This document shows, one piece after another, positions 82 to 38,323 of a DNA stretch of 42,432 nucleotides (position 1 is the stretch's first letter; every line of letters starts with the position of its first letter). Under the pieces are notes generated by a model, which had not been told where the DNA came from, did not search any database, and worked only from the letters and a program-made list of their open reading frames with translations. The stretch lies in the NCBI GenBank assembly GCA_902790475.1, contig CADASG010000018.1:1-42432 (forward strand), in the 5' to 3' direction. The translations under genes and the position numbers were made by a program. This DNA is from an uncultured Ruminococcus sp. GTDB lineage: Bacteria; Bacillota; Clostridia; Oscillospirales; Acutalibacteraceae.

Positions 82-1701
82 TTACTGTACCATGGAAGCG
101 ACTTCGGCTGCGAAGTCGTCCTGGCGCTTCTCGATACCTTCGCCCTTTTCAAAGCGAACGAATTTAACGATATCAATATTGCCGCCGAGTTCTTTAGCGG
201 TGTTTTTGGTGTACTGAGCTACGGTAAGCTTGTTGTCCTTAACAAACTCCTGATCAACCAGGCAGTTTTCCTTGTAGTACTTGTTGATCTTACCCATAAC
301 GATCTTATCTGCGATCGCTTCGGGCTTGCCCTCGTTGATAACCTGCTGACGCATTACTTCCTTTTCGTGCTCAATAACGTCTGCGGGAACATCATCTCTG
401 GTGAGGTAAGGAGTGTTAAGCGCTGCGATCTGCATTGCTACATCCTTGCCGAAAGCAACAAACTCGGGCTTATCTGCTACATCGGTAGCGAAGTTGACCA
501 GTACGCCGATCTTGCCGCCAGCGTGAACGTAAGCTACGCAAGCACCTTCCATGCGCTCAAAACGGCGGATCTGGATATTCTCGCCGATTGTGAGAACCTT
601 CTCCTGGAGAAGCTCTGCTACAGTCTGCTCGGTACCGTCAGCCTTCATTGCGAGGAGCGCCTCAACATCGGCGGGGTTCTCCTTGATAACGGTGTTTGCG
701 CAAGCCTTTACAAAATCCATAAAGGAATCGTTCTTAGCAACAAAGTCTGTCTCTGCGTTTACTTCGATAACTACGCCAACGCTGAGGTCGTCGGTGGTGG
801 TAGCGAACGCTACGCCCTCTGCGGCAACTCTGCTTGCCTTTTTAGCCTGCTTAGCCAGACCCTGCTCTCTTAAAAAGTCAACTGCTTTATCCATATCGCC
901 GTCAGCCTGAGTGAGTGCCTTTTTGCAGTCCATCATGCCGCAGCCTGTTTTTTCTCTGAGTGCTTTTACATCCTGAGCTGTGGTCTCGGCGGGCTCTTCC
1001 GCTGCAGCGGCGCCCATCTGACCCTCTTTACCCTCGATAACCGCGTTAGCCATTGCGCCTGCAATAAGCTTAACAGCGCGGATAGCGTCGTCGTTACCGG
1101 GGATCACATAGTCGATTTCATCGGGATCGCAGTTGGTATCAACGATAGCTACGATGGGGATATTCAGCTTCTTTGCCTCTGAAACGGCAATTCTTTCTTT
1201 TCTGGGGTCTACGATAAAGAGAGCGCCGGGCATCTCGGTCATATCCTTGATACCGCCCATAAATTTCTCGAGCTTTTCAATTTCGAGGTTGAGCTTGATC
1301 ACTTCTTTTTTGGGAAGCAGATCAAAGGTTCCGTCCTCCTGCATAGCACGGAGCTGCTTTAAACGCGCGATTCTTCTGCGAATGGTTGCAAAGTTGGTGA
1401 GCATACCGCCCAGCCATCTTGCGTTTACATAGAAAGCGCCTGCGCGCTCAGCTTCTTCCTTGATGGAATCCTGAGCCTGCTTTTTGGTACCTACGAACAG
1501 AACGTTCTTGCCCTCTGCGGAAAGCTCACGAACGAAGCTGTATGCTTCCTCGAGCTTTTTAACGCTCTTCTGAAGGTCGATGATATAGATACCGTTACGT
1601 TCGGTGAAGATGTATTCCGCCATCTTAGGGTTCCATCTTCTTGTCTGGTGACCGAAATGTACGCCGGCCTCCAGAAGCTGTTTCATAGAAACTACTGCCA
1701 T
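82..1701 (-). CDS. rpsB-tsf: Ribosomal protein S2 - elongation factor Ts fusion
   Basis: One uninterrupted 539-aa frame encodes two translation proteins that are normally separate genes. Residues 1-228 are a full S2 (start [20 protein letters not shown], then [17 protein letters not shown] and [12 protein letters not shown]). After an Ala/Glu-rich linker (about 229-240), residues 241-539 are a full EF-Ts: UBA domain with [15 protein letters not shown], then the EF-Tu-contacting TDFVAKND motif at 318-325. S2 sits on the 30S subunit and EF-Ts recycles EF-Tu-GDP. The genes are usually adjacent in the order rpsB-tsf, so loss of the S2 stop and spacer would yield this fusion. The start is well placed behind AAGGAGG with about 8 nt spacing. 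The stop is TAA at 82-84. Met229 in the linker is a possible internal start that would give a 311-aa free EF-Ts. Nothing recognisable lies in the 81 nt downstream. Alternatives are protease processing or an assembly error, but no frameshift signature is visible. Confidence 0.95.
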
Positions 1702-1811
1702 TTTGAATTTCCTCCTTAGGTTAAAACCTCCGCTGTGCCTTGGATTTTATCGGCGCAATCAACGGTGGATTCTCACCGCCACCCTGCCGACAAGCATCAG
1801 CGTGCGAATTG
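1702..1811 (-). promoter_or_regulatory. rpsB-tsf 5' leader with hairpin
   Basis: About 110 nt separate the predicted transcription start from the S2 start codon. The leader can fold a hairpin with CGGTG pairing to CACCG around a 6-nt loop, enclosed by CGGC pairing to GCCG, near 1750-1790. Long structured rpsB leaders that mediate S2 autoregulation are known in other bacteria. Whether this one works that way is an inference; I did not match it to a named leader family. Confidence 0.4.
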
Positions 1812-3523: not shown

Positions 3524-4402
3524 GTGAAATATGTTTTTATGACTGACGCTTCATGTGATCTGACTCAAAAGCAGGTTGATGAGATCGGCGTAGAAGTGCT
3601 CCCGATGGAGTTTCAAATCAATGAGAATATTTACCAACACTATCCCGACTGCCGCATGATGCCGCTCAGCGAGTTTTACGCAGGCATCAAGGAAGGCATT
3701 GTCCCTAAAACGACACAAATCAATTTTGAGAGCTTTAAGAACTACTTTGAGCCTTATTTGAAGGCAGGCAAGGATATTATATTCACCGGCATCGCAACGG
3801 GACTGAGCGGCACCTATAACACCTGTCTGATTGCCGCGAACGAGCTAAAGGAAAAGTATCCGAAGCGCAAGATCTATATTATAGATTCCTGCTGTGACAG
3901 CGCCGGACTTGGTTTGCTTGTTTATTTGGCAGGAAAAAAGTATAAGGAAGGCGCCGGGATTGAGGAGTTAAGGAAATATATCGAGAAAACCAAGGGCAGT
4001 ATCTGTCACTGGTTTGTGGTTGACGACCTTGATTTGCTTAAAAAGGGCGGCAGGATCTCCGCGCTTACCGCGACCTTCGGCAAAGCGCTGCAAATAAAAC
4101 CGCTGATAAGCGCCGACGAAACAGGAAAGCTTGTCAATGTCGGCAAAATCAGAGGCAAAAGCAACGTTATACCCACGCTTTTAAACTGTGTGAAACGCGA
4201 CGCTGATAAAAACTCAAAAAAGCAGATCGCTTTTGTCGCGCACGCAAATGACCCATCGGGCGCTAAGGAACTGAGAAAAGCAGTCAAGAGCTGCTTTAAG
4301 GAAGTGCAAATCTGCGATATCGGTCCCATCATAGGCTCTCATGTAGGCTCCGGTATGCTGGCGGTCGTTTTTCAGGGTAACCGCAGTGCAGGATTAAATT
4401 AA
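3524..4402 (+). CDS. DegV family protein (fatty-acid-binding, FakB-like)
   Basis: The protein is 292 aa, the usual DegV length. It opens with the family pattern VFMTDASCDLTQKQVDEIGV, has the TTQIN segment (the TTSQ position) near residue 63, GIATGLSGTYNT near 88-99, and DDLDLLKKGGRISA near 167. DegV/FakB proteins bind a single fatty acid and present it to the kinase FakA. No FakA-like gene is in the window, so the partner is unknown. Start is GTG at 3524 behind GGAG with an 8-nt gap. It is convergent with the Rrf2 gene; the hairpin at 4419-4484 lies between. Confidence 0.9.
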   Translation: MKYVFMTDASCDLTQKQVDEIGVEVLPMEFQINENIYQHYPDCRMMPLSEFYAGIKEGIVPKTTQINFESFKNYFEPYLKAGKDIIFTGIATGLSGTYNTCLIAANELKEKYPKRKIYIIDSCCDSAGLGLLVYLAGKKYKEGAGIEELRKYIEKTKGSICHWFVVDDLDLLKKGGRISALTATFGKALQIKPLISADETGKLVNVGKIRGKSNVIPTLLNCVKRDADKNSKKQIAFVAHANDPSGAKELRKAVKSCFKEVQICDIGPIIGSHVGSGMLAVVFQGNRSAGLN

Positions 4403-8493: not shown

Positions 8494-11373
8494 CTACACG
8501 TTGATCTTGATAAAGTATTTGCTGAGGTTGGGCCAGCCGGATACATAGCGGTTGAGCAAGCCTGCGTCCTGACCGTTGACCTTTCCGTCACGGTTTACGT
8601 CAGCTGCTTCCCAATCCTTGATATTCTTGTCGTAGCCGCTCCAGCCGGAAACGTAACGATTAAGAATACCTGCGTCCTGACCGTTAACTTTGCCGTCGAG
8701 GTTAACGTCGCCGATCAGAACGATTCTGCCGAGCTTCTCAATTACCTGCTGCTCAAGGAGCCATTCTCCGCAGCGTGTGCAGCGAACGCCCTCGGTAAGA
8801 CCTGTATGGTCATGAGTTGCGGGTACAGCAGGTACAACCTGATAGTCGTGACCCAGAGCAGGGATAGACTTGCGTGTGCTGATAACCTGTCCGCAGGTCG
8901 AGCAGTGGCTGCCGTCGGTGAGACCTGACTTGGTGCAGGTTGCCGCGTAGCCCTTGTCAACTACAACAGTATGAGAAAGCTTGGGAGTGACCTCCTGCTT
9001 GGTGAATACGGTACCGCAGATGGAGCAGTGAACGCCTGCGGTAAGACCTGTGTGCTCACAGGTAGCAGGCACGGCTGCGTCCATAACGGGATTATGACCC
9101 AGCGCGGGAATAAAGGTCTGCGCCTTGATAACGTCGCCGCACAGCGAGCAGTGGCTGCCTTCGGTTTTACCGACGTTTGTACATGTAGGTGCAACAGCCT
9201 TGTCTACTACGATCTTGTGTTCAAGCTTAGGAGTGACCTCCTGCTTCTTGATCACGGTGTTACATACGGAGCAGTGGCTTCCCTCGGTAAGACCTGTGGA
9301 GTGACATGTTGCGGCAACCGCTTTGTCAACTACCACGGTATGTGCTTTCTTGGGCACTACTTCCTGAGCCTTTATAACTGTGTTACATACGGAGCAGTGG
9401 CTTCCCTCGGTAAGACCTGTCTTTTTGCAGGTTGCGGCTACTGCCTTGTCTACTACTACGGTATGACCTGTTGCAGGCACTACCTCCTGCCTCTTGATAA
9501 CGCCCTTACATACGGAGCAGTGACTTCCTTCGGTAAGACCTGTCTCTGTACATGTAGCAGGTACTGCGGGATCGATTACTACGGTGTGAGCCTTCTTGGG
9601 CACTACTTCCTGAGCCTTTATAACTGTGTTACATACGGAGCAGTGGCTGCCTTCGGTAAGACCTGTCTTTTTGCAGGTTGCTGCTACTGCCTTGTCAACT
9701 ACTACGGTATGACCTGTTGCAGGCACTGTCTCCTGCTTCTTGATAACAGTCTTACATACGGAGCAGTGACTTCCTTCGGTAAGACCTGTCTCGGTACATG
9801 TAGCAGGTACTGCAGGATCGACTACTACAGTGTGAGCCTTTTTGGGCACTACTTCCTGAGCCTTGATGACCTCACCGCATACGGAGCAGTGGCTGCCCTC
9901 GGTAAGACCTGTTTTTTTACATGTTGCAGCTACAGCCTTGTCGATAACAACAGTGTGCTGATGAACAGTAGGCTGTGTGGGTGCAGTTGTAGGCACAACC
10001 ACGGCGGGACTGCTGAATACTACCTTGGGAATCAGATTGTCAAGCACATCCTGACCTGCCTCAAGGGTACTCTTGCGAACAATATATACCGAACTGTTTT
10101 CGGGGAGCTGATTTGACGGGCAAATTCTGAAATATTTAAGCTGTAAATCCATGAACGCTGTGCCGGTTTCACCGTCTTTAACGTCGAATACAACCTTTAA
10201 GAAATCAACAGGATTGCCGTTTTTGCTCAGCGAAAGCTGATTCATAATATTCGAGAAGTTACCGCTGATGATGCCCTCCTCACCGAACAACGGCGTACCG
10301 GGCGTTGTGATCGTGATGTTTCCGTTGGAAACGGGACATACGCCTGCGTCGGTATTCTCTGTCTTGTTGTAGGTGAGTTTGGAGCTGTCATAGGTGAATT
10401 CAAAGTCAGCGTTTACCAGCGAGTAGCCGGGATAGTTGACCTGATAACAAACGGTAAGCTTCTTGGTAGAGGGGTCAAACTCCTGCTTAGTAACAGGGAA
10501 CATGTTTGACGTTGCCTCAACACTGAGCTTGGGAGTCTCTTCCTGAGGCTCGGTAGGCTCCTGAGGCTGAGGATTGGGGTTTGAGGGAGTTTTTACGGTA
10601 ATTGTGACCTTAGCACCCTCTTTGGTATTGTAGTCAAAGTTTGACAAATCAAGTCTTGCTACTACGGTTGCGTCGCTCTCGTCAACGTGAACATAGATGT
10701 TCTTGCCGTTGAAAGCAGCGTCAAACGGAGTGGCGTTGGGGCATACGTAACCGTCAGAGGGAGCGCCGAAGTTGTTTGCCCAACCGCCGTTGATGGCAAA
10801 CTTGATCTGATAGTTCAGGTCTTCTTCAACTTCGTCGAAGGTGATCTCATAAACCTTCGGAGCGACCTCTTTCATGTTGTTGATGTCGTCGTCGGGATCC
10901 CAGTTGGAATCGTTGAGCCAGGTGTCCTGACCGTTACCTACAGCACGGACGACCTTGATCTCAAGTCCCTTGGGCTGCTCTACATGAGCACCGGAAACGG
11001 TGACTTCTTTGGTGTCGGGATCGAAGGTAACGGTAACGTCACATTCCTCGGTCACATTGAACACCACGTTGTTGCCTTTTTCGTCGCCGTAAGCTTCGTT
11101 GTCCCAGCTGTGGTTGGTTACAACCTTGAATTCAGCGTTTTCAACGGGCTGTACAGCAGGCAGGGTGATTGAATACTTGCCGTCTTTGCCGAGCGCCATA
11201 TCGGTTGAGATGTTGGAAGCGTCCCATGTTCCGCCGAATATCTCCTCGGGAGTACCGGCAAGACTGTAGGTCACTTCCTCCGCGCCAACGGATACGACCG
11301 GTAATCCTATAAAACAGGAAATTACCATCAGCACCGACAGCAGTAGACTGATGCCTTTTTTTGTTCTTTTCAT
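8494..11373 (-). CDS. Secreted dockerin protein with X25-like modules, cohesin-like domain and Cys repeats
   Basis: A 959-aa exported protein. Residues 1-31 are a signal peptide (KGISLLLSVLMVISCFIGLPV). Residues 35-128 and 136-262 look like two X25-type starch-binding modules (GGTWDASN...KDGKYSITLP...FKVVTNHSWDNEAYGD, and a second copy with FAINGGWANNFGAP). A Pro/Gln/Glu linker follows, then about 282-455 has a cohesin-like beta pattern (ADFEFTYDSSKLTY...FLKVVFDVKDGETGTAFMDL). Residues 473-882 are ten 41-aa repeats. Residues 886-950 are a type I dockerin with two calcium loops (DVNLDGKVNGQD, DVNRDGKVNGQD), which would plug into a cohesin scaffold. X25 plus dockerin recalls R. bromii amylosome proteins such as Sas20. 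No catalytic domain is visible, so a substrate-adhesion or scaffold role is likely. The X25 and cohesin-like calls are by pattern only. Confidence 0.8.
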   Translation of the reverse strand: MKRTKKGISLLLSVLMVISCFIGLPVVSVGAEEVTYSLAGTPEEIFGGTWDASNISTDMALGKDGKYSITLPAVQPVENAEFKVVTNHSWDNEAYGDEKGNNVVFNVTEECDVTVTFDPDTKEVTVSGAHVEQPKGLEIKVVRAVGNGQDTWLNDSNWDPDDDINNMKEVAPKVYEITFDEVEEDLNYQIKFAINGGWANNFGAPSDGYVCPNATPFDAAFNGKNIYVHVDESDATVVARLDLSNFDYNTKEGAKVTITVKTPSNPNPQPQEPTEPQEETPKLSVEATSNMFPVTKQEFDPSTKKLTVCYQVNYPGYSLVNADFEFTYDSSKLTYNKTENTDAGVCPVSNGNITITTPGTPLFGEEGIISGNFSNIMNQLSLSKNGNPVDFLKVVFDVKDGETGTAFMDLQLKYFRICPSNQLPENSSVYIVRKSTLEAGQDVLDNLIPKVVFSSPAVVVPTTAPTQPTVHQHTVVIDKAVAATCKKTGLTEGSHCSVCGEVIKAQEVVPKKAHTVVVDPAVPATCTETGLTEGSHCSVCKTVIKKQETVPATGHTVVVDKAVAATCKKTGLTEGSHCSVCNTVIKAQEVVPKKAHTVVIDPAVPATCTETGLTEGSHCSVCKGVIKRQEVVPATGHTVVVDKAVAATCKKTGLTEGSHCSVCNTVIKAQEVVPKKAHTVVVDKAVAATCHSTGLTEGSHCSVCNTVIKKQEVTPKLEHKIVVDKAVAPTCTNVGKTEGSHCSLCGDVIKAQTFIPALGHNPVMDAAVPATCEHTGLTAGVHCSICGTVFTKQEVTPKLSHTVVVDKGYAATCTKSGLTDGSHCSTCGQVISTRKSIPALGHDYQVVPAVPATHDHTGLTEGVRCTRCGEWLLEQQVIEKLGRIVLIGDVNLDGKVNGQDAGILNRYVSGWSGYDKNIKDWEAADVNRDGKVNGQDAGLLNRYVSGWPNLSKYFIKINV
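8728..9957 (-). repeat. Ten 123-bp (41-aa) tandem repeats with three cysteines each
   Basis: The repeat core is TGLTEGSHCSVC followed by a VI..QE.VP tail and a leading HTVVVDKAVAATC. Each unit has Cys at positions 13, 24 and 27; the last unit replaces the first Cys by His. Units 1, 3, 5 (KAVAATCKKTG) alternate with 2, 4 (PAVPATCTETG), so an 82-aa dimer was duplicated; units 7-10 are more diverged. Similar units are common in surface proteins of gut Firmicutes. The CxxC spacing suggests a zinc-ribbon or disulfide fold, but this is unproven. Confidence 0.95.
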
Positions 11374-12652: not shown

Positions 12653-12787
12653 TAGGCAATACCGCATAATTCAGGTGTGCGGATTGCGCAGTAAGATTTT
12701 TCGTCAGGTTGTACAAATAAATTGAGGTAAGGCTGTCGCCTTGCCGAGCAAGCAAGCCGTGCGCCTTGAATTGTGCGGTGTTGCCTA
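12653..12787 (+). repeat. MITE-like element, copy 1 (short form)
   Basis: 135 bp from TAGGCAA to TTGCCTA. The ends are imperfect terminal inverted repeats of about 29 bp (AGGCAATACCGCATAATTCA against TGAATTGTGCGGTGTTGCCT). An internal hairpin AAGGC-TGTC-GCCTT sits in the middle. It is flanked by TA on both sides, consistent with a TA target duplication. It lies 12 bp past the deacetylase stop codon. Confidence 0.8.
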
Positions 12788-12799
12788 TATTATATTAGT

Positions 12800-21586: not shown

Positions 21587-21751
21587 TAGGCAATACCGCA
21601 TAATTCAGGTGTGCGGATTGCGCAGCAAGATTTTTCGTCAGGTTGTTCAAATAAATCGAGGTAAGGCTGTCGCCTTGCCGAGATTTTTTGGGCAAGCTGA
21701 CGGAATAATAATCAAGCAAGCCGTGCGCCTTGAATTGTGCGGTGTTGCCTA
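21587..21751 (+). repeat. MITE-like element, copy 2 (long form)
   Basis: 165 bp, same ends and core as copy 1 but with about 30 extra bases (TTTTTTGGGCAAGCTGACGG and following) between the internal hairpin and the right arm. It lies between two convergent genes. Confidence 0.8.
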
Positions 21752-21771
21752 TAGTTTAATGAAACACCGGT

Positions 21772-37459: not shown

Positions 37460-37510
37460 AACAAATCTCCATAATTAAACGACTGCTTTTCCGATCGTCC
37501 GAAAACGATT

Positions 37511-37649
37511 AAGGCAATACCGCATAATTCAGGTGTGCGGATTGCGCAGTAAGATTTTTCGTCAGGTTGTTCAAATAAATCGAGGTAAGGCTGTCGCCTT
37601 GCCGAGAATTCAAGCAAGCCACGCGCCTTGAATTGTGCGGTGTTGCCTT
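37511..37649 (+). repeat. MITE-like element, copy 3 (short form)
   Basis: 139 bp from AAGGCAA to TTGCCTT, flanked by TT/AA so that TTAAGGCAA and TTGCCTTAA mirror each other. It has the same core as copy 1 with four more bases near the right arm. Confidence 0.8.
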
Positions 37650-38181: not shown

Positions 38182-38323
38182 AAGGCAACACCGCACAATT
38201 CAAGGCGCACGGCTTGCTTTTTCTTATTCCGTCAGCTTGCCCAAAAAATCTCGGCAAGGCGACAGCCTTACCTCAATTTATTTGTACAACCTGACGAAAA
38301 ATCTTACTGCGCAATCCATGCGG
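38182..38323 (-). repeat. MITE-like element, copy 4 (long form, inverted, damaged)
   Basis: The element reads on the minus strand relative to the other three. Its AAGGCAACACCGCACAATTCA end and the long-form insert are intact. The opposite end is broken: after GCGCAATCC a short segment is missing, ATGCGG remains, and homology then stops. Confidence 0.75.

Follow-up and report, generated by a model that had tools for sequence, protein, structure and literature searches.

The window analyzed in this work is a stretch of 42,432 nucleotides, corresponding to positions 1-42432 of contig C18 of a draft genome (G000; 2,735,277 bases in 174 contigs, 93.96% complete and 3.64% contaminated) whose nearest named records are drafts of uncultured Ruminococcus sp. 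(RUG11304, RUG11207, RUG14448, and others). On its minus strand, a single open reading frame (82..1701), with an ATG start, 539 codons plus a stop, and no internal stops, embeds the sequences of ribosomal protein S2 (uS2; residues 1-226, 1024..1701), a linker (residues 227-238, Gly227-Ala238, 988..1023), and the elongation factor EF-Ts (residues 239-539, 85..987). The S2 half matches the Pfam family Ribosomal_S2 at residues 9-224 (profile 1-216 of 216, E = 2e-102), the NCBIfam model rpsB_bact (TIGR01011) at residues 3-226 (profile 1-224 of 225; 361.4 bits vs. a cut-off of 76.3), and the solved ribosomal S2 chains 3j9w (residues 1-241) and 5njt (6-228). The C-terminal half matches Pfam EF_TS at residues 309-521 (profile 1-204 of 204, E = 2.1e-71) and NCBIfam tsf (TIGR00116) at residues 239-538 (profile 3-291 of 293; 306.8 bits vs. 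a cut-off of 104.05); the match to EF-Ts_N (residues 242-281) lies under the cut-off of that family (29.2 of 33.2 bits). In addition, residues 238-537 correspond to residues 1-278 of the EF-Ts chain 1efu_B, from the first residue of the chain, and the translated frame keeps the N-terminal EF-Tu-binding segment and the TDFVAK motif. With two full-length homologs, in the order known from the operon and in a single frame, the fusion is more than a chance reading of the sequence. The in-frame fusion claimed by an earlier note on this DNA is thus borne out by one stop-free frame of 539 amino acids covering the full profiles of both proteins. That note also described both halves as apparently complete and joined by a 12-residue linker; this holds for the profile-matched parts, but both halves are trimmed at the join: the acidic S2 tail of close relatives, of which the linker is a remnant, has lost roughly its final 4-7 residues, and the MAF or MAAF with which their EF-Ts begins is absent.

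Both halves look constrained. Indeed, in the comparison with a close relative (L140), dN and dS are 0.0095 and 0.637 for the S2 half and 0.0238 and 0.709 for the EF-Ts half. Among 47 aligned rows (seven of them partial, one locus, L045, left out, and some representing one genome twice), no residue unique to G000 was found in S2 and only one, F417, in EF-Ts outside the join. This lack of an excess of unusual residues in either half gives no sign of adaptation to the fused state, and it cuts both ways, as it also leaves no mark of a long history as a fusion.

The gene is preceded by a conserved, structured rpsB 5' leader (1702..1803, minus strand), at the end of which AAGGAGG is separated from the ATG by a short stretch. 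In an alignment of 42 of the 56 distinct leaders collected, a GGTG motif is nearly invariant and AGGAGG is invariant, 14 pairs are formed in 97.6% of the cells, and eight pairs are changed on both sides. None of 500 shuffles reached the covariation score of these stems (0.281 against 0.151), although related sequences can beat shuffles even without structure; slid versions attained at most 0.068, a comparison that favours the structure because it was derived from the same alignment. The two main stems can form in the sequence of the window. The search against Rfam revealed no family at its gathering score; with E allowed up to 5 there were five hits, all far below the scores required. In E. 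coli, rpsB-tsf is under autogenous control by S2, and by analogy the leader may be regarded as a candidate S2-sensing autoregulatory element.

The closest known arrangement is represented by the separate rpsB and tsf genes of members of the same genus (G519/L140 and G487/L034) and of RUG11304 (L060), which share with the window the order of the genes and have products about 98% (S2, as also in L141) and 91-96% (EF-Ts) identical to its own; the leaders of L140 and L060 also resemble that of the window, the L034 sequence being cut short. These loci differ from the window in that they retain the S2 tail, a stop codon, a spacer of about 30-50 nt with a ribosome-binding site, and an ATG. The spacing was measured in 38 close relatives with 34 distinct junctions; rpsB and tsf share a frame in 20 of these relatives. 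The pattern common to close relatives consists of EG(K/R)..., an acidic tail, the stop, a spacer with AAAGGATG or similar, and then, in most of them, ATGGCAGCATTTACAGCTCAGGATG, while the window reads ...GCGGAAGAGCCCGCCGAGACCACAGCTCAGGATG... at the join. The linker residues are identical or similar to those at the start of the S2 tail, before the stop, in close relatives. The distance between S2 residue 226 and the first shared EF-Ts codon is 42 nt in the window vs. 101-129 nt (median 108) in the 38 relatives, so that about 60-87 nt are missing, in frame; the lost segment runs from the final residues of the S2 tail through the stop and the spacer, ribosome-binding site included, to the first EF-Ts codons. 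The junction can be placed at 979..990 (minus strand), and blastn alignments with 11 relatives are broken there, ending at 985-1004 on the S2 side and resuming at 981 on the EF-Ts side. Since the relatives keep the spacer that the window does not have, the fused state is the derived one. The longest words that occur both in the S2 tail and at the start of tsf are of only 6-10 nt in the 38 relatives, which would fit either slippage or a false short-overlap join. An ordinary k-mer assembler is not misled by words as short as these.

To what extent is the fusion shared by related bacteria? Using the 539-aa protein as the query, a full-length stop-free match over residues 1-539 was found only in G000, both in a family sample (398 genomes, 370 of them matched) and in a genus sample (101 genomes, 87 matched), among the matches listed. 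The same result was obtained in a second look at the genus (162 genomes), and samples of the order (394 genomes), class (391), and phylum (398) revealed no fusion besides that of G000. These samples overlap and all lie within the phylum of G000; the E thresholds (1e-170 for the 162 genomes of the genus, 1e-143 for the order, 1e-135 for the class, and 1e-115 for the phylum) were set strictly, so as to pass a fused gene and to drop most matches to one half, with the consequence that fusions with linkers much longer than about 50 aa might appear as two matches and escape notice, as not every pair was read. The loci carrying both genes on one strand were 200, and the only two fused ones (L001 and L002) are the window itself, seen twice. 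In all of the 198 loci from relatives (190 distinct junctions, as some genomes are represented by two loci), the EF-Ts match comes after a stop; an in-frame start lies just before EF-Ts in 195 of them (ATG in 191), and in 184 of these 195 its Shine-Dalgarno duplex is at least as strong as -6 kcal/mol. The exact junction sequence also gave no match in viral contigs. By the related-genome check proposed in the earlier note, the fusion is thus not a trait of the group: a conserved family of bacterial S2-EF-Ts fusions would be expected in more than one genome, whereas G000 alone carries a stop-free fusion in the samples of this phylum. In many genomes of the family, what looked like open frames of roughly 580-640 aa had suggested a widespread fusion, but the loci of this kind that were read (L023, L029, and L031) exhibit intergenic stops, so the length of an open frame is no proof of fusion.

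A stop in 198 of 198 relative loci leaves two possibilities: an event that occurred in a single genome or an artefact. The latter reading, according to which rpsB and tsf are really separate and the spacer was lost through a chimeric read, a short-overlap join at an AT-rich gap, or the assembly of a minority variant, or else through binning, must be regarded as a serious one, even if we consider it short of probable. It is favoured by the universal presence of the stop in the relatives, by the fact that the junction is known from one draft genome only, and by the short words common to the S2 tail and the start of tsf, which permit a short-overlap join. It is at odds with the finding that the join is in frame and creates no stop, and with the context of the gene. 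Indeed, on the upstream side, blastn revealed collinearity with L060 and L062 up to window positions ~4365-4380. Moreover, seven of the ten window proteins scanned with Pfam match a family over nearly their full length, the other three showing domains in part of the length, a partial profile, and no match, respectively. No N was found in the window or in the 19 readable 20-kb stretches of the draft, and the join does not lie at a visible scaffold gap.

The 3' side of the gene tells in the opposite direction. The fused gene ends 81 nt from the end of the contig, and these last 81 nt gave no match to the other contigs of the draft at E up to 1. In eight of ten relatives (L038 and L060 being apparently one genome), a hairpin of the GTGCG...CGCAC type followed by a run of T, as judged by eye, lies after tsf; the post-tsf hairpin of L062 is of a different type and L053 has none of this kind. 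The 84-nt folds of the hairpin-bearing relatives range from -22.0 to -26.7 kcal/mol vs. only -5.8 for the 84 nt of the window, where positions 1-81, 3' of tsf, are shared with the relatives for the first ~15 nt only and lack the intrinsic terminator found in them. The tsf end and terminator of four close relatives have a counterpart of 77-82% similarity instead on another contig of the bin (G000:C69 ~8620-8706; L212:1023-1107), behind an unrelated promoter-like stretch and without the tsf coding sequence; the same query in nine relatives matched the 3' end of tsf in four of them (five places), with no match in the other five. Either the 3' flank has been rearranged or the bin is mixed, and the GC content of the 19 stretches (0.426-0.524) leaves the latter possible. 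The comparison of 41 contig ends revealed no suffix-prefix overlap of 15-300 nt; a common 25-mer, running the same way in both ends, was seen in three pairs.

The earlier note had named separate rpsB and tsf genes elsewhere in the same genome as what would overturn the fusion. The draft holds one place for S2 and one for EF-Ts, both inside the frame 82..1701, and no second rpsB or tsf was found in it. However, a match to ribosomal protein L4 is also missing from the draft, so that parts of the genome are absent from it and the lack of a second copy is weak evidence; both L4 and the spread of GC indicate that the bin may be mixed or incomplete. Overall, we put the chance that the fusion is present in a living genome at slightly better than even.

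The explanation that we prefer, to which we give just short of an even chance, is that, in a single lineage of a Ruminococcus-type gut bacterium, rpsB and tsf became one gene for an S2-EF-Ts protein when about 60-87 nt between them were deleted in frame. We infer both this deletion in a living genome and every step from translation onward. With the S2 stop codon and the last part of the S2 tail gone, together with the ribosome-binding site and first codons of tsf, ribosomes starting at rpsB would read on through both genes and yield a protein of about 59 kDa. Its S2 part would enter the 30S subunit; its EF-Ts part, held on the solvent side by a short and flexible linker, would still be able to bind EF-Tu and to carry out nucleotide exchange on it. 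An inherited internal start would probably supply some free EF-Ts as well. A stronger version, in which the cell has no S2 and no EF-Ts apart from this protein and each 30S subunit thus brings along its own EF-Tu recharger, with a variable amount of free EF-Ts besides, is doubtful and is offered only tentatively.

The putative internal start is an in-frame ATG (M229; 1015..1017, minus strand) which sits in the S2 tail, 36 nt before the first EF-Ts codon shared with the relatives, and is preceded by a Shine-Dalgarno-like GAGGG (1022..1026, minus strand), as indicated by sequence and duplex energies. Its duplex of -8.7 kcal/mol is the strongest of the 19 internal in-frame ATG, GTG, and TTG codons; for comparison, the value is -11.1 kcal/mol at the rpsB start and has a median of -10.4 at the tsf starts of the 38 close relatives, from which M229 is not far off. 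An ATG occurs at the position of M229 in 32 of these 38 relatives with separate genes, with a median of -8.7 kcal/mol, so the codon, about 15 codons before the S2 stop in close relatives, is inherited. After the deletion, M229 could serve as a substitute start for EF-Ts. The earlier note maintained that the fusion would tether EF-Ts to every 30S subunit and fix a 1:1 ratio; this expectation is weakened by the presence of M229 and its Shine-Dalgarno sequence, from which free EF-Ts could be produced.

If taken further, the same codon leads to a second alternative, in which the genes are fused in the DNA but give two proteins in practice, EF-Ts being translated from M229 and the full-length product being minor or unimportant. 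The rank of M229 among the internal starts speaks for this possibility; however, duplexes of -8.7 kcal/mol or lower are fairly common in the fused gene, where 19 of 522 codon positions have one, the similar ATG in the relatives with separate genes argues that it was not selected for the initiation of EF-Ts, and ribosomes arriving in frame do not terminate before M229, so that the full-length protein should persist. We consider it improbable. We know of no protease site for the Ala/Glu linker. It is very unlikely that the product is a polyprotein whose S2 and EF-Ts parts are released by cleavage in this linker, the fate proposed for the S1-domain/EF-Ts precursor of chloroplasts, since, even though the linker derives from the variable acidic tail of the relatives and the plant and algal precedent is described as likely processed (PMC12156993), a deletion in a single lineage would hardly have gained a protease site.

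In the S2-EF-Ts protein expected from the deletion, the 5njt S2 chain is matched up to residue 228 and the homology with EF-Ts starts at 238, so about ten residues, presumably flexible, would join them. An E. coli strain with chromosomal mEos2-labelled S2 is said to "grow normally" (PMC4488752), and an S2-YFP protein, joined at the C-terminus of S2, serves as a ribosome reporter (PMC11578582); on the basis of these two cases, S2 fusions are tolerated in E. coli. The solved EF-Ts fusions 3mmp, 4r71, and 3agp were also considered as precedents and set aside: EF-Ts comes first in them (chain residues 2-279), and they thus provide no precedent for an N-terminal partner on EF-Ts. EF-Ts is normally a separate factor, mostly bound to EF-Tu. 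S2 is located on the solvent side of the 30S subunit, away from the site of tRNA delivery by EF-Tu, and a tethered EF-Ts would therefore serve EF-Tu after its release. According to an estimate cited in PMC8530515, only 6-48% of the cellular EF-Ts is free, so that ribosomes with S2-EF-Ts would often carry EF-Tu along.

In agreement with the earlier note, which knew of no characterised bacterial S2-EF-Ts fusion, none was seen in the PMC papers searched, as judged by titles and the beginnings of abstracts. The automatic annotation of UniProt names some multi-domain fusions. To our knowledge, the protein, if real, would be the first natural bacterial translation factor built into the ribosome. The nearest kind is that of the chloroplast polyproteins of EF-Ts (PETs), for which Beligni et al. 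(2004) is cited as the original paper. PETs of algae and plants combine the S1-domain protein PSRP-7 with EF-Ts and are described as likely processed (PMC12156993). Like the protein of the window, those of Chlamydomonas and plants consist of a 30S-associated ribosomal protein followed by EF-Ts in one frame; they differ in having an S1-domain partner rather than S2, two EF-Ts domains, and conservation in algae and plants vs. one genome here. In the window protein, Pfam recognises S2 and one EF_TS, with no S1 domain. The parallel with Chlamydomonas is indeed loose, as the earlier note called it, given the S1-domain partner and the likely processing of the product described there (PMC12156993). 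S2 proteins extended at the C-terminus, as modelled by NCBIfam PRK12311 and the "sunset domain" S2, offer a further comparison. The alignment to each of these models continues beyond the S2 core here, with scores of 291.5 and 330.9 bits that fall far short of the respective cut-offs of 526 and 710, and the extension of the window protein, unlike theirs, is a whole EF-Ts.

If the fusion is true, it would represent a natural test of whether the recycling of EF-Tu works when EF-Ts is tethered to the ribosome in a ratio that is nearly fixed; as an artefact, it would warn against reading gene fusions from single draft genomes.

Some other features were observed during the analysis. Another draft of the same genus, with 5% contamination, carries two differing rpsB-tsf loci (G481:C167 and G481:C106; L033 and L150), which might be due either to a mixed bin or to a real duplication. 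A dispersed repeat of about 100 nt occurs in the window at 21658-21764, 38182-38274, 12749-12796, and 37508-37649 and on contig C69 (L212:1141-1246); the two better copies of the window and the C69 copy are 94-97% identical, the pieces elsewhere in the window being shorter or weaker. Lastly, positions 8494-11373 of the window (minus strand) encode a secreted-type protein of 959 aa with a C-terminal dockerin (Pfam X25 and Dockerin_1), in which about ten Cys-containing repeats of some 35-40 residues (SHCSVC) can be recognised by eye.
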